Assembly (NCBI GenBank): GCA_003697085.1
Contig: RFFU01000097.1
Coordinates: 1 to 58,390, forward strand
DNA length: 58,390 nucleotides
Reading direction: 5' to 3'
Origin: Candidatus Hydrogenedentota bacterium
GTDB taxonomy: Bacteria > UBA8481 > J006
Below are positions 6,636 to 40,403 of this stretch, one piece after another. The notes beneath the pieces were generated by a model. That model saw nothing but the letters and a program-made list of their open reading frames with translations, had not been told where the DNA came from and ran no database searches. Numbering within the stretch: position 1 is the first letter of the stretch; every line of letters starts with the position of its first letter. A program made the position numbers and the translations under genes.

Positions 6636-8488
6636 TCTTCATCCCTCTCTTCCAGCACGCGCACAATCTCGTCGTGGATCTCCTTGACCTTGAACGGCAA
6701 CCCGCGCACAAGGTTGAACCGTTCGACTTTTCGAAGGAAGGTCGCTTTCAAAAGAAAGGCCAACTGACCTTCGTTGATTTCGGGAACGAGAATCTTTTTG
6801 TAACGCTGCAAAATCTCTCCCACATTTTTCGGAAACGGATTCAGATGCCGGAGTTGAAGGTGCCCCACGCTCCGTCCCTCCCGAAGAGCCCGTTCAACGC
6901 CTCCGCGAATGGCGCCGTAGGTACTTCCCCAGCCCACGACGAGCAGGTCTCCCTGCTGCTCTCCAAAAACTTTCGCTTCAGGAATAAAGTCCGCGAGACG
7001 CTGTATCTTTTCGGATCGGATTCTTGTCATTTTGTGGTGATTCTCCGGACGATAGTTTACGTTTCCCGTAATATCTTCCTTCTCCAGACCTCCAATCCTG
7101 TGTTCCATACCCGGCGTTCCCGGAAGCGCCAACTTCCGCGCCAAGGTTACCGGGTCGCGAGCGTACGGCTGGTAGCCGTCCGGAGGAGGTTCCTTGAGAA
7201 TTCCTGTTTCGATGGGTGGAAGATCATCCAGATCGGGGATCCTCCACGGTTCGGCGCCGTTGGCGATAAAGCCGTCGCTGAGCACGATGACGGGCGCCAT
7301 CGCACGGAAGGCCAAGCGTACCGCTTCGTAAACGGTATCGAAGGCATCCGCGGGGCTTTGGGGAGCCAGGACGATCACGGGGCTCTCCCCGTTGCGCCCG
7401 AAAAGCGCCTGGAGGAGGTCCGCCTGTTCCGTCTTCGTCGGAAGTCCCGTTGAAGGACCGCCCCGCTGAACGTCGATGATGATTACCGGTAATTCCGCCA
7501 TTACGGCCAGACCTATCGCTTCGCTTTTCAAACAGAGTCCGGGCCCGCTCGTTCCCGTCATCGCCACGGCCCCCCCATAAGCGGCTCCGATCGCCGTGCA
7601 CATCGCGGCGATTTCATCCTCCGCCTGAAAAGTATAAACGTTGTATCCGGCCAAACCGGCCAGTGTATGGAGAATATCGCTGGCCGGAGTAATCGGATAA
7701 GAGGCGTACACAAGCGGAAGTTTCGCCGAATGGGCCGCCGCAATCGCTCCATAGGCGCAGGCCTGATTTCCATTAAGCTGTCGGTATGTGCCGGGCGGAA
7801 GATCCGCACGCGGAACGCGATAACGTACCCGAAACATCTGAACAGTGTCACCGTAGGCGAATCCCGCCAAAAGGGCCTTTTTGTTCGCTTGCCCGATCGG
7901 CGATTCCGGGCCGAATTTCTTCTCGATCCACTCGAGGCTCGGATCGATCGGGCGATCGTACAGCCAGTTGACGACCCCAAGAGCAAAGAAGTTCTTGCAT
8001 CGCTCCGCTTCCTTGCGGCCCAAACCGTCGATGTCCGCAACGACGTTGAGCGTCAATGTCGTGATGGGTACCGCATAAAGTTCGTAATCCGACAGCGAAT
8101 CATCCTCGAGAGGATTGGTCTCGTAACCGACCTTTTTGAGGTTTTGCGGCGTAAAGGCATCGCTGTTCGCGATCACGATGCCGCCCTCCACCACCTCGGC
8201 CAACGAAATCTTCAAGGCCGCCGGATTCATCGCAACGAGGCAATCGGCCTTATCTCCGGGTGTATAAATGTCGTGGGCGGCAAGATGGATTTGAAACCCG
8301 CTCACACCGGCCATCGTTCCCGCGGGAGCCCGGATCTCCGCGGGATAATCCGGAAGCGTGCTCACGTCATTCCCGAAGAGCGCTGATGTGTTCGAAAACT
8401 GCGTCCCCGTCAATTGCATCCCGTCGCCGGAATCCCCGGCAAACCGTACCGTAACACTTTCCTTCTCGACAACCTTCGTTTCAGCCAT
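6632..8488 (-). CDS. korA: 2-oxoacid:ferredoxin oxidoreductase, fused gamma-alpha subunit
   Basis: 618 residues. The gamma domain (about 1-195; starts [17 protein letters not shown]) is fused to the alpha pyrimidine-binding domain (from [14 protein letters not shown] at about 235) and a C-terminal transketolase-like domain. This fusion is the usual layout of KorA in aerobic and microaerophilic bacteria. Known role: with KorB, reversible 2-oxoglutarate oxidation linked to ferredoxin. The ATG at 8488 has GAGG seven bases upstream. Together with the PDH operon at 34121-39687 it implies that this organism uses an NAD-linked complex for pyruvate and a ferredoxin enzyme for 2-oxoglutarate. Confidence 0.93.
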
Positions 8489-8859
8489 TCCTTCGCCTCA
8501 CGCCTTTCTTCCCTTTCCGCCGTCGCTCCCCCCCTTCAAGGCAACCCGGAAAGTCATCTTGATCGGCAGCGTTGGTCCACCGGTGCCCTTTCAGCCGGAG
8601 GAGAGTCACGCCAATCATATTATTTTATTCGCACGGCCTTCGAAACACAAGATCAAACACGATCCGGTGTTGCCATTGTTGGCGAATTCGCAGCCGCACA
8701 ATTTCGGGGTTGCGTTCAAGGTGTCGCTCGAACGACGGCCGGGAAGGAGATACGTCCGAAAGCAGCAAAAGAAGGGGACGCTGCTGAAGCGTAACAACCG
8801 CCGAACCGATCACATTTGCGCTCTCCTTTCCTCCGCGACCGCCAGGAACACAGAAAAAG
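8489..8859. other. Gene-free interval between korA and the secreted-protein gene
   Basis: 371 bases. It must hold the korA promoter (leftward) and the end of the 13858-8860 operon. A short AT-rich patch near 8616-8630 (atattattttatt) is the best promoter neighbourhood, but I cannot place -35/-10 boxes with confidence. The short ORFs here lack protein-like composition. Confidence 0.5.
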
Positions 8860-24472: not shown

Positions 24473-27400
24473 ATGGCCGGGCGGCAAAAGGAGAGAGCGG
24501 AATCACGCTCACTTTTTTCGCGGGGGATTCTCCATCGCATCCTGATCGGACTGGCGGCGGGCTCCCTCGTCGGACTCTTCATCGTCAAACTCTCGGACAA
24601 CGCCTATTTCCGCCAATTGGAGCTGATCAGTCTCGATTTTTGCTATACTCATCGACCGCAGCCCTATTTTCGTTCCGATATCGGCTACATCGATTACGAC
24701 GACGAGGCGTTGGCCTTTTACGGTCCCTGGCCATGGCCGCGAAACCGCCAGGTGGCTCTCGTTCGTACCGTTGGAGAATTCGGTGCTCGGGCCGTCGGCT
24801 ACGACGTGTTTTTCCTCGAACACAGCAACGCCGTCTTCCACACGCCGCGTCTGGAGAAGAAGGTTCATGAATTCGAAGAAGAAGCGATCGAAGATCCCGA
24901 CGCGATGGTCAGCGAAATTCTCTCCGCGTTCCGCGACTACGACGCGGAATTCGCCCAGGCCACCGCCGATGCGGGAAATATCTTTTTCGCTCACATTATG
25001 ACAAAACCAAATGCGGACATCGCCCGCGGCGGTTTGAAGGCCATTCTTGAATTTTCGGAAGAGGAAAAGAAGCACTTTTCCGAAGAGAAGCGGCAGGGAA
25101 TCGAATTGGCAAAATCGTTTGCGATCCCAGCGACGGAAACCTTGCGAAAGCACCTCTACAAGGCCGTCGATCTGACTCCGGTCCTTCCTGACCTCGCCTC
25201 CGCCGCCCGCGGCCTCGGCTTCGCCCAGATCATCAAGGACCTCGATCCCACCGTCCGCCTCTACCCCTTCGCGATGTATTACGACAGTATGGTCTTTCCT
25301 TCGATCGCGGTCGTGATGCTCGCCGACCTCTTCCAAATCAAGGTCACGGATGTGCGGATCGTACCGGGAAAATATCTCGAATTTCCCGACGCGGCGGTTC
25401 CGCTTGAAGGGCATGCCTCCGAAACGACGGCGGCGAAACGCAAAACCATCCGCGTCCCCATCAATCAACAGGGACAAATGCTGGTCAACTGGGCCGGTAA
25501 ATTCTACGACCACGGCCTCCACGTCCCCTACCGCCGCCTCTCGGAAATCTATTCCTTGATGCTTGCCAAGGAGGCCGTCCGCTCCCTCGATACCGGCTCG
25601 CTCGATGCCTCTCAAGCCGTGAATGCGGCCCGCGATGCGATCCAACTCGATCGAATCCTGCGCCCGGACGAGGCGGGTTCCCTTGCGGTTCGTGTCACCG
25701 CCGCCGCGCTCGCGGACTCCGTTCTCCGTTCCTCCACCTCCTTCGAAGATGTCCTCACAAACGTCCGGTCCGCGTTCCGCGGCGAAACCGTTTCGGTCGA
25801 GGACGTTCGTGCGGGAGTCGCCAGCGCAGCCGTCGCGTTGCATACACTCGGCGAATCCGTGCCCGTCCCCCCACTCTCCAGCACTTGGCGGGAAGAGATC
25901 GAACGGATGATCCACTTCTCCCAGAGAAAACACCGCCTCGATCGCGCCTTTCCGTTTTACTTTGCACCGAAGGTCACGGTCCCGTGGGGGGGGACCGAAC
26001 GCGCCTTCTCGCCGGCTGATCTCGAAGGAAAAATTCTCATGGTCGGTTTGACAGGCGTCGGAACGATCGACCTCAATCCGACCCCCTTCGAAAAGGCCTG
26101 TCCGATGGTCGCGCTTCACGCCAATGCTCTTAATACCGTCTTGACCCAACAGTTCCTCCGCTTTCCCTCCGAGGCACCGAAGAAGATCGTGATCGTTCTC
26201 GCGGCCCTTTTGCTCGGACTCCTCCTTGCCCCGATGCGGACATCCCGAGGCGCACTCCTTGCGGCCGTGGCGCTTGCGGGTTGGACCGGTTTCGTCTATT
26301 GGGAATGGATCGAACGCGGTCGCTGGATCCCTTGGCTGGGTGTCGTCCTCGTCGTGATCCTTCTCTTCCTTCTCAAGATCTTCGGAGAATTCCTTCTGAC
26401 GATTCGGGAACGAGCGCGCGTGAGAAAACTCTTCGCCGCCATGGTTTCCCCGAAGGTTCTTCGCCTCATGGAAGAAGATCCCAGCCGATTCAGCCTGACC
26501 GGGGAACGCAAGCACGCAACGATGTTCTTCTCTTGGGTTGACGGCTTCTCCGGGGTCACGGCCGGTGTCTCCCCCGACGAACTCAGCGCCATCCTCGCCC
26601 AGTATCTTACCCCGATCTCCGAAATCATCATGGACTATGACGGATATATCGACAAATACGAGGGTCATATCGTCATGGCGGACTTTGGCGTTCCGCTCGA
26701 TGACCCCGATCACCCGTGGAAATGTTGTTTTTCCGCTGTCGAACAACAACAAGATATTGAAGCATTCATCCTTTTCGTCAGTGCGCGATATGGAACCGAT
26801 GTGCATGTTTCGATGGGAATAAATACCGGCTACGTCTCAGCGGGAAACATGGGGTCGGAGCGGAAGATGCAGTACACCGTGATGGGCGACGCCGTCAACG
26901 TGGCCGCGCGTTTCATGCCGGCCAATATGATCTACGGCACGGACATCATCACGGGCGAAGACACGGAACCCTTCGTGCGGGATAGCGTCCAGTTACGGGA
27001 ACTTGACCGGCTTCTCCTGAAAGGAAAAACGACGCCGACCGTCATTTACGAAGTCATGGGATGGCGGAAAGATGCGTATCTGGAGCGTCGCGGAGACCTT
27101 CCCGTTCCCTCCGCTCTCCGTGTCCGCTGGCTCAAGGCTCCCGCCCAAAAGATCTTCGGTTACGCCCGTTTTTGGCGGAAAAGATATGAAACATTCTCCG
27201 TACCAATGGCGTGGGAGATCGCGGAATTCTTCGAGGGGAATCTCGAATTGGCGGAAGGAATCATGAAAAACGCAGGTGTATGGGGGGTGATGATGCTGTG
27301 CCGTTCCATCCGTCAACTCCAGGACCGTCTCGGTATCAGCGACGCTTCGCTTGGTGTCACATCGGGCGGCCGCATCGATTATCAGAAGCGATTGGAGGAG

Positions 27401-27976
27401 CACGAACGGCGGCTCGAAGCCGTTATCGAACGGATCGACGAGGCGATTCGGAAGGGGGAGAAGATCGAGGATGCGGTTCTCGGTTGGCCGGAGCTTCGCC
27501 TGCGGGCCACCTCGTTTCTGGCATCCATTCGCCGCCTGCGGCGCAATCTTCCGAAGAAATCCCGGGAAGGCATCGAGGCCGTGAATCGCACCTTGAAGGC
27601 GATTCGTGAGTGGCTTTCGACGGAGACGGCCGATACGGGTTTTCAGCAGCGTTTGAAGGAACTTTCGGCGGAATATGAACGTCGTGTGCAGGCGTTTTTC
27701 GACGAAATCGCATCGCGGCCGAGGGAATACCACGAAATGATGGCCGTGATCGGCGACCTTTCCTCGGAGGAAATCCGCGTTCGGGATCTCTATCACGAAG
27801 CACTGGCGCTCCATAGAGAGAGAAAATGGAACGAAGCGATTCCCGTACTCGAGAACGCCTTGCGGATTCTGCCGAAGGACCCCCCCTCGAAGGCGCTTCT
27901 CGAGCGGGCGCAAGTTTATCTCGAGCAGCCACCGGGTCCCGAGTGGCAAGGCGAGTTCGTGCAGACAAAGAAGTGA
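24473..27976 (+). CDS. CHASE2-domain class III nucleotide cyclase, C2-like half (no metal-binding Asp)
   Basis: 1167 residues. N-terminal helix (about 19-39); extracytoplasmic CHASE2 sensor (about 45-560) with a helical insert of roughly 155 residues (360-515); three membrane helices (about 570-641); class III cyclase domain (about 680-860); long helical region; one C-terminal TPR-like motif. Compared with active cyclases, both metal Asp are replaced (W688 in FFSWVDGF, H732 in KYEGHIVM) and the phosphate Arg is S780. Retained are K728 and T802 (adenine selection), N809 and R813 (transition state, in GDAVNVAAR) and a KGK motif (850-852). It should therefore be inactive as a homodimer. The next gene, seven bases downstream, has the opposite pattern. 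ATG 24473 has no obvious SD. Confidence 0.93.
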   Translation: MAGRQKERAESRSLFSRGILHRILIGLAAGSLVGLFIVKLSDNAYFRQLELISLDFCYTHRPQPYFRSDIGYIDYDDEALAFYGPWPWPRNRQVALVRTVGEFGARAVGYDVFFLEHSNAVFHTPRLEKKVHEFEEEAIEDPDAMVSEILSAFRDYDAEFAQATADAGNIFFAHIMTKPNADIARGGLKAILEFSEEEKKHFSEEKRQGIELAKSFAIPATETLRKHLYKAVDLTPVLPDLASAARGLGFAQIIKDLDPTVRLYPFAMYYDSMVFPSIAVVMLADLFQIKVTDVRIVPGKYLEFPDAAVPLEGHASETTAAKRKTIRVPINQQGQMLVNWAGKFYDHGLHVPYRRLSEIYSLMLAKEAVRSLDTGSLDASQAVNAARDAIQLDRILRPDEAGSLAVRVTAAALADSVLRSSTSFEDVLTNVRSAFRGETVSVEDVRAGVASAAVALHTLGESVPVPPLSSTWREEIERMIHFSQRKHRLDRAFPFYFAPKVTVPWGGTERAFSPADLEGKILMVGLTGVGTIDLNPTPFEKACPMVALHANALNTVLTQQFLRFPSEAPKKIVIVLAALLLGLLLAPMRTSRGALLAAVALAGWTGFVYWEWIERGRWIPWLGVVLVVILLFLLKIFGEFLLTIRERARVRKLFAAMVSPKVLRLMEEDPSRFSLTGERKHATMFFSWVDGFSGVTAGVSPDELSAILAQYLTPISEIIMDYDGYIDKYEGHIVMADFGVPLDDPDHPWKCCFSAVEQQQDIEAFILFVSARYGTDVHVSMGINTGYVSAGNMGSERKMQYTVMGDAVNVAARFMPANMIYGTDIITGEDTEPFVRDSVQLRELDRLLLKGKTTPTVIYEVMGWRKDAYLERRGDLPVPSALRVRWLKAPAQKIFGYARFWRKRYETFSVPMAWEIAEFFEGNLELAEGIMKNAGVWGVMMLCRSIRQLQDRLGISDASLGVTSGGRIDYQKRLEEHERRLEAVIERIDEAIRKGEKIEDAVLGWPELRLRATSFLASIRRLRRNLPKKSREGIEAVNRTLKAIREWLSTETADTGFQQRLKELSAEYERRVQAFFDEIASRPREYHEMMAVIGDLSSEEIRVRDLYHEALALHRERKWNEAIPVLENALRILPKDPPSKALLERAQVYLEQPPGPEWQGEFVQTKK

Positions 27977-27983
27977 GGAGACG

Positions 27984-30900
27984 ATGATCGAAAAGTTGAC
28001 TTCTTTCTTCGAAGAGGCCGTCCAGCCGGGAAGACGAACCGTTTTTCTGGCGGTGACGGCGGCGCTTTTGGTCGGCCTCCTCCATCTCCTCGGCTTCTTC
28101 TCCAATCTTGAACTCTATCTCGTCGACAAGAGATTCAACTGGCGGTACCGCCTCGGAGACGTCCCGATCGACTCCTCCGTGATCACGGTCGATTGGGACG
28201 AGATGGCGATCCAAACAGTCGGTCGATGGCCGTGGACGTGGGAGAAACACGCCATTCTCTTCGAGACACTGAAGTATTACGGTGCGGCCCGGGCGGCCGT
28301 CGTGAACAATCATTTCTCGAGCGAAGAGTTGCCGGCGTTGGAACCGAATGCTGCGGCGATTCTTCAAACCCGCCTCCTCAACGCCGTCTTCGCCGGCGAC
28401 ACCGAAGCCCTCGCCGCGGCGATTCCGAGATATAATGAACGCTTCGCCCGCAGTCTGGAAGATTTCGGCCACGCTTATCTCGCCGTGAATCTCGCCGTTC
28501 CCGGGGCTGAAGAATCCCTGACCCCCGAACAACTCTTCAAGTGGAAACGCGCCTTAGCGCTTGAACGAAGCTCGGAAGACCGCGAGGCAGTCGAGCGCGT
28601 GCTTCAATTCGGCGTTCCCGCGCGGAAGGGAGGGGCTCCTTACGAAGCAATCGCAGTCCGACCACCGGTCCTTCGGCTCTGCCGTGTCGTGAAGGGCGTC
28701 GGTTTCAACCGCATTATGCACGATCCCGACGGTGTCGTCCGGCGCACCCCCGCGATGATGCGATTCCGCGGCCGTGATTTTCCCGCCATCGGCGTTGTCC
28801 TGGCGGCCGAAGCCTTCGGAGTTCCGCAAAAAAAGGTTATTTATCGGCCGGGACACTACATCGAATTTCCCGGAGCCGTCTATCCCAACGGGCGGAAAGT
28901 GCGCCTGCCCATCGACAAGAACGGTATGGCCGCCGTGAACTGGCCCGGCCCCTACCACGGCACCATCCCCCATCTCCCCTTCAAGATGATCCGAGACGAC
29001 TACCTCTATCGAACCGCGAAATCCGTTCTGAAACACCTCGATCTTTCCGGCGCGCCGGAAGAGCTCAATGCGCTCTACGGAGACGCCGTCAACGCCATTA
29101 TAGGCACAGGGCTCTGCAATGCCGAGGAAGCCCAGGCCATCGCCTCCCAGATCTTCATCGCCCACGTCGCTCAGTTTTACAACGACGCCGGCTCCCCCTT
29201 CTCCGATTTTCTCGATTACACCGGCGGCGAGGACCCCGATGGAACGGTCCGGCTCGTCTGGGATTGCATCCGGATCGGCAAATTGACCGAAAAGGCTTTC
29301 CTGTCGGGAAACACGTCTCCGAAGTATGAAGATCTCCTCGCCGAGGCTGAATTATCCGACACTCCGGAATTCCGCGAAACCGTAGGCCAGGTCCTCTTCG
29401 CCGCGCGGAAGGGTACGCTCGACCTCGTCCGCCCCTTCTTCTTCCCTCCCCCCCTGAGAATCTCACTCCCCGACGGAACGGTCCAGAAACTCTCTCTTCT
29501 TTCCCTCGAGGGAAAGAGCGTCTTCATCGGCCTGACGGCCTCCGCGCTCAACGCGCTCAATCCGACCCCCTTCCAGGAGCGGTACGAAATGCTGGGAATG
29601 CAACCCGCTCTCTACACCACGATTATGACCGGCCGCTTCATCCACTATCCCTCGCTTCCGCTCGTTCTGGGGCTCATCGTCTTCTATTCCTTTCTCACCT
29701 CTTGGCTCGTCTTCCGCAAGGGAACCGCCATCCCTCTCTTCTCCTCCCTCCTTCTTCTAACCGCCCATTTGACGGTCTCCCTGACCGGGTTTTTCCGTCT
29801 CGGATGGGTCATCCCCATCGTTGCTCCATCGCTCGCCATTACCGGAACCTACCTCGGCGGTGTCGGAATCAGCTATCTCCAAGCCCTGCGGGAACGCCGA
29901 CGTGTCCGCGGACTTTTCAGCGCCATGGTCTCGCCTGAAGTGCTCCGAATGATCGAGGCCAACCCCGAACTTCTGGCCCTCTCCGGCGAACGCCGGGACG
30001 CCACGATGTTCTCCTCCGACGTCTCCGGGTTCACGACGATCTCGGAGGGCGTAACGGCGCAGGAACTCGCCGCGATCCTCAACGTCTATCTGACCCCGAT
30101 GTCGAACATCATTATGAAATACGATGGGTACGTCGACAAGTACGAGGGAGATGCCATCAAGGCCTCCTTCGGGATTCCCCTTCCGGACGAACATCATCCC
30201 TGGAAGGGAGTCTGCCAGGCGATGGAACAGCAGGTGGAGTTGGACGTCATTAAGAGAATGATCTTGCTCAAGTATGGCGTCTCGATCTCGGCGCGGATGG
30301 GCGTCAACAGCGGGATCGTCTCGGCGGGAAATATGGGGTCCGAACAGAAGAAACAGTTCTCGGTCTTGGGAGCGGAAGTCGCGATCGCGGAGGAGCTCGA
30401 ACCGATCAACAAACTCTACGATACCTGGATCGCCTTCGGCGAGGAAACCGAGCGGCGGGCCCGGTCCGTCGTCCTCGGTCGTATGCTCGATATCGTCCCC
30501 CTTGGTCCCGCCGAGGAACCCCGCCGAATCTTCGAACCGCTCGGCTGGAACCGCGAAGCGTACCTCGCCTACTGGCGGAACCGCCCCGTTCCCTCGATGA
30601 TTCTCGAGGGATTGAGAAAACTTCCTCCGGAAAAGGCTCTCGGATACCTTCATTACTATGAGAATCACACGCTTCCGGATTCCGCGCTCAAATCCGAAAT
30701 CCTGCAACTTTTCCGTGACCTCAAGGATCCCGCGATGGAAGCGATGAAACAAGAGCACCGCATTGATGTCGGCCGATTCCTCGAGATGCTTACCGCGGTG
30801 GAAAAGCGTCTCCGGGGGTACTCCGCGGCGGTGTCGCCCCCGACCGAATCCTCTCCGGAACGGATCCGGGCTCTTTTTGCAAACTGGCGGGAACGGATCG

Positions 30901-31424
30901 CAACTCTTACACAACGGCTCACAGAGGTTTCCGATCGAATTGGATCTGCGGAACGTGAAGAACTGCTTACAATCCTCGATACGCTCGAAAAGAGAGTCAA
31001 CAGTTTCGAGAAGCGGATTTCGTTTACAGCCGAGGGCGATGCCGTCGGCCTGGAACTCGCACGGAATCTCTCCGGAGTCCTCGAGGCCGCGGGCCGAGGC
31101 GAACGTTTCGATCTGGTTGCGGCGGACCGCGCCTATCGCGGTCATCGGCGCGTGATCCGCACCGCGATGGAGAACTTCGTTGCTCGTTTCGAAGCCCCGG
31201 AAAAGGCGCGGGAATATCACGAATTCATCGCCGATCATTGTCGGCTTCTGGACGAGCACAGGGATTTGAAGACGAGATTCGAGGCGGCGTGGGAACTCTA
31301 CGCGAAGAAGCGTTGGGACGAGGCGGAAGCCGCGTTTCGCGACGTTCTGGAGAACTACCCCGATGATCCTCCGTCACTGAAATACCTCGAGCGAATCGCG
31401 CGGGAACGCGATGCCGCCGCCTGA
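27984..31424 (+). CDS. CHASE2-domain class III nucleotide cyclase, C1-like half (metal site intact)
   Basis: 1146 residues, paralogue of the preceding gene with the same architecture: N-terminal helix, CHASE2 (to about 550), three membrane helices (about 556-630), cyclase domain (about 670-850), helical region and a TPR-like end (YAKKRWDEAEAAF). Metal-binding D679 (SSDVSGFT) and D723 (KYEGDAIK) and phosphate-binding R771 are present. The transition-state Asn and Arg are A800 and E804 (GAEVAIAEELE replaces GDAVNVAARFM), the Thr position is S793 and the KGK motif is lost. Alone it should not cyclise ATP; paired with the upstream protein it would supply exactly the missing half. GAGGAG precedes the ATG. 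A hairpin follows the stop. Confidence 0.93.
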   Translation: MIEKLTSFFEEAVQPGRRTVFLAVTAALLVGLLHLLGFFSNLELYLVDKRFNWRYRLGDVPIDSSVITVDWDEMAIQTVGRWPWTWEKHAILFETLKYYGAARAAVVNNHFSSEELPALEPNAAAILQTRLLNAVFAGDTEALAAAIPRYNERFARSLEDFGHAYLAVNLAVPGAEESLTPEQLFKWKRALALERSSEDREAVERVLQFGVPARKGGAPYEAIAVRPPVLRLCRVVKGVGFNRIMHDPDGVVRRTPAMMRFRGRDFPAIGVVLAAEAFGVPQKKVIYRPGHYIEFPGAVYPNGRKVRLPIDKNGMAAVNWPGPYHGTIPHLPFKMIRDDYLYRTAKSVLKHLDLSGAPEELNALYGDAVNAIIGTGLCNAEEAQAIASQIFIAHVAQFYNDAGSPFSDFLDYTGGEDPDGTVRLVWDCIRIGKLTEKAFLSGNTSPKYEDLLAEAELSDTPEFRETVGQVLFAARKGTLDLVRPFFFPPPLRISLPDGTVQKLSLLSLEGKSVFIGLTASALNALNPTPFQERYEMLGMQPALYTTIMTGRFIHYPSLPLVLGLIVFYSFLTSWLVFRKGTAIPLFSSLLLLTAHLTVSLTGFFRLGWVIPIVAPSLAITGTYLGGVGISYLQALRERRRVRGLFSAMVSPEVLRMIEANPELLALSGERRDATMFSSDVSGFTTISEGVTAQELAAILNVYLTPMSNIIMKYDGYVDKYEGDAIKASFGIPLPDEHHPWKGVCQAMEQQVELDVIKRMILLKYGVSISARMGVNSGIVSAGNMGSEQKKQFSVLGAEVAIAEELEPINKLYDTWIAFGEETERRARSVVLGRMLDIVPLGPAEEPRRIFEPLGWNREAYLAYWRNRPVPSMILEGLRKLPPEKALGYLHYYENHTLPDSALKSEILQLFRDLKDPAMEAMKQEHRIDVGRFLEMLTAVEKRLRGYSAAVSPPTESSPERIRALFANWRERIATLTQRLTEVSDRIGSAEREELLTILDTLEKRVNSFEKRISFTAEGDAVGLELARNLSGVLEAAGRGERFDLVAADRAYRGHRRVIRTAMENFVARFEAPEKAREYHEFIADHCRLLDEHRDLKTRFEAAWELYAKKRWDEAEAAFRDVLENYPDDPPSLKYLERIARERDAAA

Positions 31425-39744: not shown

Positions 39745-40191
39745 CTACCCGAACCAAAAGGAAAAAGTGTCTCTTTTGTCGGAAACACTGCGAAAACGAG
39801 AATCCACCTGTTCGATGATTCCCTCGTAGAGGGCAAATACGAGATCAGGACGGGATTTTTTCAGCGAATCGAGCCGTGAACGATCCACCATTAGGATTTC
39901 ACTTTTCTCCTTAGCCACCAGAGTCGCATTCCGTTCAAACTTTCCGATCAAACCCGTTTCCCCCGCGATCTCACCGACGCCGAGACGCGCAACGACGTCG
40001 TATTCGTTCTCCTTTCTCTTCTCCCGTCTCACCTCGAGTTCCCCCGAAAGAACGATATACATCTCCTTTCCCTGTTCGCCCTGCCTGCAGAGCGTCTCAC
40101 CGGGATCCAACGCCTTCTTCACGAAGGCCTTCTCCAGTTCGCTTCTATCCAACGCGCTGAAACGGTCTAAAATCCCCGCCGACTCCGCCAC
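39745..40191 (-). CDS. Stand-alone cyclic-nucleotide-binding domain protein
   Basis: 148 residues from GTG 40191. The frame opens at 40314, but an excellent SD (GGAGGTG) precedes the GTG and homology starts there. It is a CRP-type beta barrel (about 8-115). The phosphate-binding cassette shows GEIAGETGLIG (G73, E74) followed by R87-N-A-T90, so the residues that hold cAMP or cGMP are present. No DNA-binding domain follows, only a helix and a tail. It may sense cAMP made by the cyclases in this window and regulate a protein partner (inference). It is transcribed convergently with lpdA. Confidence 0.85.
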   Translation of the reverse strand: MAESAGILDRFSALDRSELEKAFVKKALDPGETLCRQGEQGKEMYIVLSGELEVRREKRKENEYDVVARLGVGEIAGETGLIGKFERNATLVAKEKSEILMVDRSRLDSLKKSRPDLVFALYEGIIEQVDSRFRSVSDKRDTFSFWFG

Positions 40192-40403
40192 GATCCACCT
40201 CCAAAAAACAACACACCTTCGGATTTCATCCCGCCATCCTAACGTTCTTTTCGGCTGATGAAAAGCACGCCAATCCAAAATTTGCCGGTGTCTTGAAACA
40301 TTCCACGCTTCCAAGAGACGGGACCGGCCCCCTTCGCCGCGCCTTCCGAAAGACGACTTGTGTCAACCTCCGGCTCCGCCTGTTGAAGACTCCATGCCTC
40401 TCT

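Follow-up and report, generated by a model that had tools for sequence, protein, structure and literature searches.

What do two neighbouring bacterial cyclase genes make when each encodes only part of a catalytic site? In the mammalian membrane adenylyl cyclases ADCY1-9, the C1 domain carries the pair of metal-binding Asp residues and the C2 domain carries the Asn, Arg, Lys and adenine pocket, which gives one live and one degenerate site. Class III cyclases in general assemble a site from two monomers, one supplying Asp, Asp and Arg and the other Asn, Arg and Lys (PMC2576301), and the bacterial members are said to form homodimers in which both sites are equal (PMC9552081; homodimer structure in PMC9433096). 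The question is raised by DNA of a Candidatus Hydrogenedentota bacterium (GCA_003697085.1, contig RFFU01000097.1), of which we analysed positions 1-58,390 of the forward strand (the window) with a focus on 24,473-31,424, where two tandem genes encode the CHASE2-sensor cyclases that we call P1 and P2. We consider it highly probable (about 0.87) that P1 and P2 form an obligate heterodimeric, membrane-bound adenylyl cyclase. The genes and their domains are laid out as follows (aa, amino acids; ORF, open reading frame).

24473..27976, + strand: P1, CHASE2 plus class III cyclase, 1167 aa, putative C2-like half-site subunit (ORF, Pfam, orthologs in 6 other genomes)
24587..25549, + strand: P1 CHASE2 sensor domain, aa 39-359, best stretch (Pfam PF05226)
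26408..27064, + strand: P1 cyclase domain, aa 646-864 (gap-free alignment with P2)
27065..27973, + strand: P1 C-terminal helical/TPR-like extension, homologous to that of P2 (weak TPR Pfam matches; A1 match along the length of P2-type proteins)
27977..27983, + strand: 7-base spacer from the P1 stop to the P2 ATG, with a GAGGAG-like ribosome-binding site overlapping the P1 stop (sequence)
27984..31424, + strand: P2, CHASE2 plus class III cyclase, 1146 aa, putative C1-like half-site subunit (ORF, Pfam)
28062..28991, + strand: P2 CHASE2 sensor domain, aa 27-336, best stretch (Pfam PF05226)
29892..30548, + strand: P2 cyclase domain, aa 637-855 (alignment with P1)
30549..31421, + strand: P2 C-terminal helical/TPR-like extension (weak TPR Pfam matches)

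In both chains CHASE2 lies N-terminal of a single cyclase domain. The Pfam matches are above the cut-offs for CHASE2 (PF05226; P1 121.5 bits, E 6e-35; P2 99.2 bits, E 4e-28; cut-off 26.3) and for Guanylate_cyc (PF00211; P1 44.5 bits, E 2e-11; P2 42.9 bits, E 5e-11; curated cut-off 21.9). P1 and P2 are two ORFs parted by a stop codon and 7 bases, the spacing given by a first-pass annotation of this DNA, and their catalytic domains are unfused. The cyclase domains, each of 219 aa, show a gap-free alignment in which the numbering differs by nine residues throughout, as that annotation had also stated. We scored ten alignment columns (metal 1, base Lys, metal 2, triphosphate Arg, base Thr, Asn, Arg and the three of KGK), which read as follows in P1, P2 and their seven-member ortholog sets.

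26534..26536, + strand: P1 W688, replacing metal Asp 1 (W/A/S/A/A/M/M in the seven orthologs)
26654..26656, + strand: P1 K728, adenine-pocket Lys, kept in 7/7
26666..26668, + strand: P1 H732, replacing metal Asp 2 (His in 7/7)
26810..26812, + strand: P1 S780, replacing the triphosphate Arg (S/T/A/T/A/T/M)
26876..26911, + strand: P1 T802 (base-pocket Thr), N809 (ribose Asn) and R813 (transition-state Arg), invariant in 7/7
27020..27028, + strand: P1 KGK 850-852, triphosphate Lys motif, invariant in 7/7
30018..30020, + strand: P2 D679, metal Asp 1, within ATMFSSDVSGFTTISEGVTAQELA, invariant among orthologs
30150..30152, + strand: P2 D723, metal Asp 2, invariant in 7/7
30294..30296, + strand: P2 R771, triphosphate Arg, invariant in 7/7
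30381..30383, + strand: P2 A800, replacing the ribose Asn (A or T in orthologs)
30393..30395, + strand: P2 E804, replacing the transition-state Arg (Glu in 7/7, Glu/Asp in the independent B proteins described below)

Neither chain alone holds the complete catalytic set of a homodimeric cyclase. Jointly they are complete, with D679, D723 and R771 of P2 and K728, T802, N809, R813 and KGK of P1, and the Lys plus Thr/Asp of an adenylyl-type base pocket are present in P1 as K728 and T802, both invariant in 7/7. Each kept and lost residue that the first-pass annotation had listed for P1 was found at the position given. Its description of P2 stood in part: D679, D723 and R771 are kept, and Asn, Arg and KGK (GPA in P2) are lost, but the other half is not missing as a whole. 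P2 retains the base-pocket Lys K719 and a near-equivalent of the Thr, S793 (S/T in orthologs), which limits its loss to Asn, Arg and KGK within the C2-type half. The His that replaces metal Asp 2 in P1 stands within the motif KYEGH[VI][IV]MAD in 7/7 P1 proteins and might be functional in the dead site.

Adjacent orthologous pairs are present in seven genomes from three phylum-level groups: 2/2 examined genomes of the window's phylum (G000, G001), 3/3 of a second phylum (G030, G098, G099) and two genomes of a third group (G676, G809). A genome search was far more productive than a contig scan with P1 as the query, which gave one relative. The first-pass annotation had named homologous pairs that lose the complementary residues as one of the observations that would refute it; the split is retained in 7/7 pairs. 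At the scored columns the seven P1 proteins read W/A/S/A/A/M/M, K, H, S/T/A/T/A/T/M, T, N, R and KGK, and the seven P2 proteins read D, K, D, R, S/T, A/T and E, with KGK gone. In one P2, from G098, the contig stops short of the KGK column; a P2-type C-terminal fragment on a different contig of that genome (L063) has GVA at this place. Among 245 genomes of the phylum of G055, nothing as strong as P1/P2 was found with a profile at 1e-60; there, the inspected members are complete single-gene cyclases and form the sister group of the pair.

The retained halves are also the conserved ones, as judged from invariant columns in five P1/P2 pairs. Metal loop 1 has 19/22 invariant columns in P2 versus 7/22 in P1, the base/transition-state helix has 17/21 in P1 versus 10/21 in P2, and the KGK segment has 12/20 in P1 versus 4/20 in P2. 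Pairwise within-family dN/dS (the ratio of nonsynonymous to synonymous substitution rates) is 0.12-0.16 for the P1 cyclase domain and 0.11-0.21 for that of P2, below the 0.25-0.36 of the N-terminal (CHASE2) part; these values are rough because synonymous sites are fairly diverged. The range of 0.11-0.21 indicates that neither cyclase domain is decaying.

Maximum-likelihood trees of 71 cyclase domains, and of 51 domains with the catalytic columns removed, both place the P1 clade (100/100) as sister to the P2 clade (100/98) with joint support of 100/99, adjoining complete single-gene CHASE2 cyclases. The trees point to a single duplication of a presumably homodimeric CHASE2 cyclase followed by reciprocal loss. 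Duplication and loss may predate the divergence of the three groups or predate a transfer of the pair among them, and the trees are compatible with either.

A second tandem pair, A/B, occurs in G018, a genome of another phylum, where A reads SKENTNRKGK and B, 12 bases away, reads DKDGTIE without KGK. The triphosphate-Arg column was left unscored in A/B because complete relatives have Gly there. Five genomes among 296 of that phylum carry the pair (G018, G382, G359, G371, G444), the relatives inspected in the phylum are complete, and the N-terminal parts of A and B resemble CHASE2 receptors by appearance rather than by a Pfam scan. The A clade (100/98) and the B clade (100/99) are sisters (96/83), far from P1/P2. 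A common origin of the two pairs was rejected by the approximately unbiased test whether A was joined with P1 (p = 2e-108), B with P2 (3e-72) or all four together (4e-10), and the complementary split thus arose at least twice. Both origins have the identical gene order, with the C2-like gene first in 12/12 pairs (7 P1/P2 and 5 A/B) and gaps of 2-27 bases, and in both the catalytic Arg has given way to an acidic residue. This residue lies in an EEL-like motif in P2 (E804) and in the B proteins (L092, L140, L141, L134, L135); judged from the sequences, the change from Arg to Glu/Asp is a convergent charge reversal, not random decay.

The first-pass annotation had proposed a survey for adjacent CHASE2 cyclases with the same split, and the genomes searched yielded seven orthologous and five independent pairs that show it. 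With 94 of the 98 other fetched homologous domains complete, this repetition is more than chance. The 122 distinct cyclase domains with a full code, a sample drawn by similarity rather than at random, comprise 94 complete domains, 24 in the 12 pairs, 2 fused domains resembling soluble adenylyl cyclase (sAC) and 2 non-complementary neighbours; there is no lone half-site CHASE2 cyclase among them. A P2/B-type profile search of 386 genomes ranked the known pairs top, and no third origin was seen among the inspected matches. If positions were lost at random, the chance of an exact reciprocal split would be on the order of 0.006 for P1/P2 and 0.014 for A/B, a rough guide because the scored positions were chosen by the analyst; the ortholog and recurrence evidence weighs more. 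Tandem cyclases are not automatically complementary: those of L093 (G025:C13, 2293-6838) are adjacent and overlapping but not complementary. The first of them reads VTDKTDHGPY and is largely degenerate; the second reads DEDGTNRKGI, with Glu for the base Lys, and is perhaps a guanylyl cyclase.

The heterodimer that the first-pass annotation had proposed from complementary half-sites draws strong comparative support from ortholog conservation, adjacency and order, reciprocal conservation, purifying selection and the second origin. Several observations weigh against it. The half-loss in P2 is not clean, given K719 and S793, and separation is less complete in G371 and G444, where metal Asp 2 persists in A. 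Either P1 or P2 could, in principle, partner with one of the complete cyclases encoded elsewhere in the genome (G000:C77, C106, C121). AlphaFold2 models from four-row full-length alignments had a mean pLDDT (predicted local distance difference test) of 45-46, with the cyclase domains below 50, and were not used. A sequence search of the PDB placed both cyclase domains nearest bacterial CyaB/CyaC-type cyclases and did not clearly discriminate C1 from C2.

Could both domains be dead pseudo-enzymes that serve as scaffolds or exert dominant control over other cyclases of the cell? Each domain by itself does lack essential residues, and complete cyclases are encoded elsewhere in the genome, but if they were dead scaffolds, one protein would not keep both Asp residues while its partner keeps KGK and Asn/Arg. 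With each partner retaining precisely the other's missing half in 12 pairs of two origins, and with strong purifying selection on the domains, we regard this explanation as improbable. Somewhat less probable still is that P2 acts as a homodimer of altered mechanism, with P1 as an inhibitory or regulatory partner. P2 has both metal Asp residues, the triphosphate Arg and the base-pocket Lys, yet its transition-state Arg is Glu and its ribose Asn is lost in 7/7, and the invariant N, R and KGK of P1 would be needless in an inhibitor. That P1 and P2 each partner other cyclases of the genome, where related types are indeed encoded (C77, C106), is very unlikely, since in 12/12 pairs the two genes occur together, side by side and in one order. 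Moreover, if a partner contained both halves, nothing would select for a reciprocal pattern. An alignment, assembly or pseudogene artefact might be suspected of draft assemblies with many contigs. However, the frames are open without stops, the pattern repeats in independent genomes and dN/dS is well below 1, and the orthologs exclude an artefact at the sequence level, which makes it the least credible explanation of all.

Under the heterodimer model, we infer that P1 and P2 associate physically and, from the Lys/Thr base pocket of P1, that the product is cyclic AMP (cAMP). One composite site of the dimer would be complete, with two metal Asp residues and the triphosphate Arg from P2 and the adenine-pocket Lys/Thr, ribose Asn, transition-state Arg and KGK Lys from P1, while the second site (W688/H732 of P1 with A800/E804 of P2) would be dead on both sides. 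A homodimer of P1 or of P2 would lack an essential half at both sites and should be inactive. A shared mRNA with the 7-base gap, if the genes are co-transcribed, would supply both chains together. Two different CHASE2 domains would steer one active site, and the pair could therefore integrate two inputs, presumably ligands. More tentatively, the pair might be a two-receptor coincidence detector, in which two diverged CHASE2 sensors govern one composite site. The dead site, where the Glu of P2 (Glu/Asp in the five independent pairs) faces the invariant His of P1, might then be given over to allosteric control, as a bacterial equivalent of the forskolin-type pseudo-site with at least two separate origins. 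Such a regulatory role is guessed from the mammalian forskolin site (described in PMC8815786), helped only by the invariant His and Glu.

The genome has 21 matches to cyclic nucleotide-binding (cNMP-binding) domains, possible candidates for cAMP receivers. The one inside the window is a domain at 39859-40116 on the - strand, in the ORF 39745-40314. On G000:C77 (L046/L103), a cyclase homologous to P1 (9113-10165, DKDRTNRVGR) is adjoined by a small cNMP_binding ORF (8383-8643). No conserved neighbour gene was seen in a comparison of the window with two other main loci, and no NCBIfam model matched P1 or P2.

ADCY1-9 and P1/P2 have the residue split in common. However, ADCY1-9 are single fused polypeptides with two six-transmembrane units, whereas P1 and P2 are separate CHASE2 receptors encoded by two genes. 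Soluble guanylate cyclase carries H-NOX/PAS sensors, is soluble and produces cyclic GMP; P1 and P2 differ in having no H-NOX or PAS domain among their Pfam matches and in their Lys/Thr-type base pocket. Its alpha/beta form is a heterodimeric cyclase of two separate homologous subunits (PMC3591389), an arrangement like that proposed for P1/P2. In the chytrid rhodopsin guanylyl cyclase RGC/NeoR, two membrane receptors that carry different sensors form an obligate heterodimer (PMC8815786), and the obligate pairing of two membrane receptors is what we propose for P1/P2. RGC1/2 retain all cyclization-relevant residues, so that their need for a partner is thought to lie outside the site (PMC8815786); RGC/NeoR is, moreover, eukaryotic and guanylyl, whereas P1/P2 are bacterial, with an adenylyl-type pocket and a split site. 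Among bacteria, Rv1625c/Cya and other class III cyclases have their fold in common with P1/P2 but are described as homodimers, and Sinorhizobium CyaD1/D2/K have the CHASE2 sensor in common (PMC13001267).

The first-pass annotation had also held a receptor pair of this kind to be new. The split site itself is not. It is known from eukaryotes, in the fused membrane cyclases and in soluble guanylate cyclase, and the genome with P1/P2 also encodes a fused sAC (ADCY10)-like protein (L006/L047 1-3760, G000:C17, - strand) with the cyclase codes DKDKVER and NRLRTNRKGK, which has C1-like and C2-like half-sites as P1/P2 do. Unlike P1/P2, it is a fused soluble-type chain with the C1-like domain first, a P-loop ATPase-like and repeat-rich C-terminus and no CHASE2. 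Novelty is therefore restricted to the two-gene, two-receptor form. We found no report of a two-gene bacterial heterodimeric receptor cyclase in the open-access literature, which misses most subscription papers and is not proof of absence.

In the standard account, eukaryotic membrane cyclases became asymmetric through duplication and fusion of a bacterial homodimer, with their form originating by duplication and fusion within eukaryotes (PMC9552081). P1/P2 are an independent bacterial event without fusion, and duplication with complementary loss took place inside bacteria at least twice. Since this duplication and loss left the genes unfused, an intermediate that the standard account skips becomes open to expression and dissection. 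The pairs would offer natural, separately addressable C1-type and C2-type subunits, and they would allow tests of why the C2-like gene always comes first and why the catalytic Arg became Glu/Asp in both lineages.

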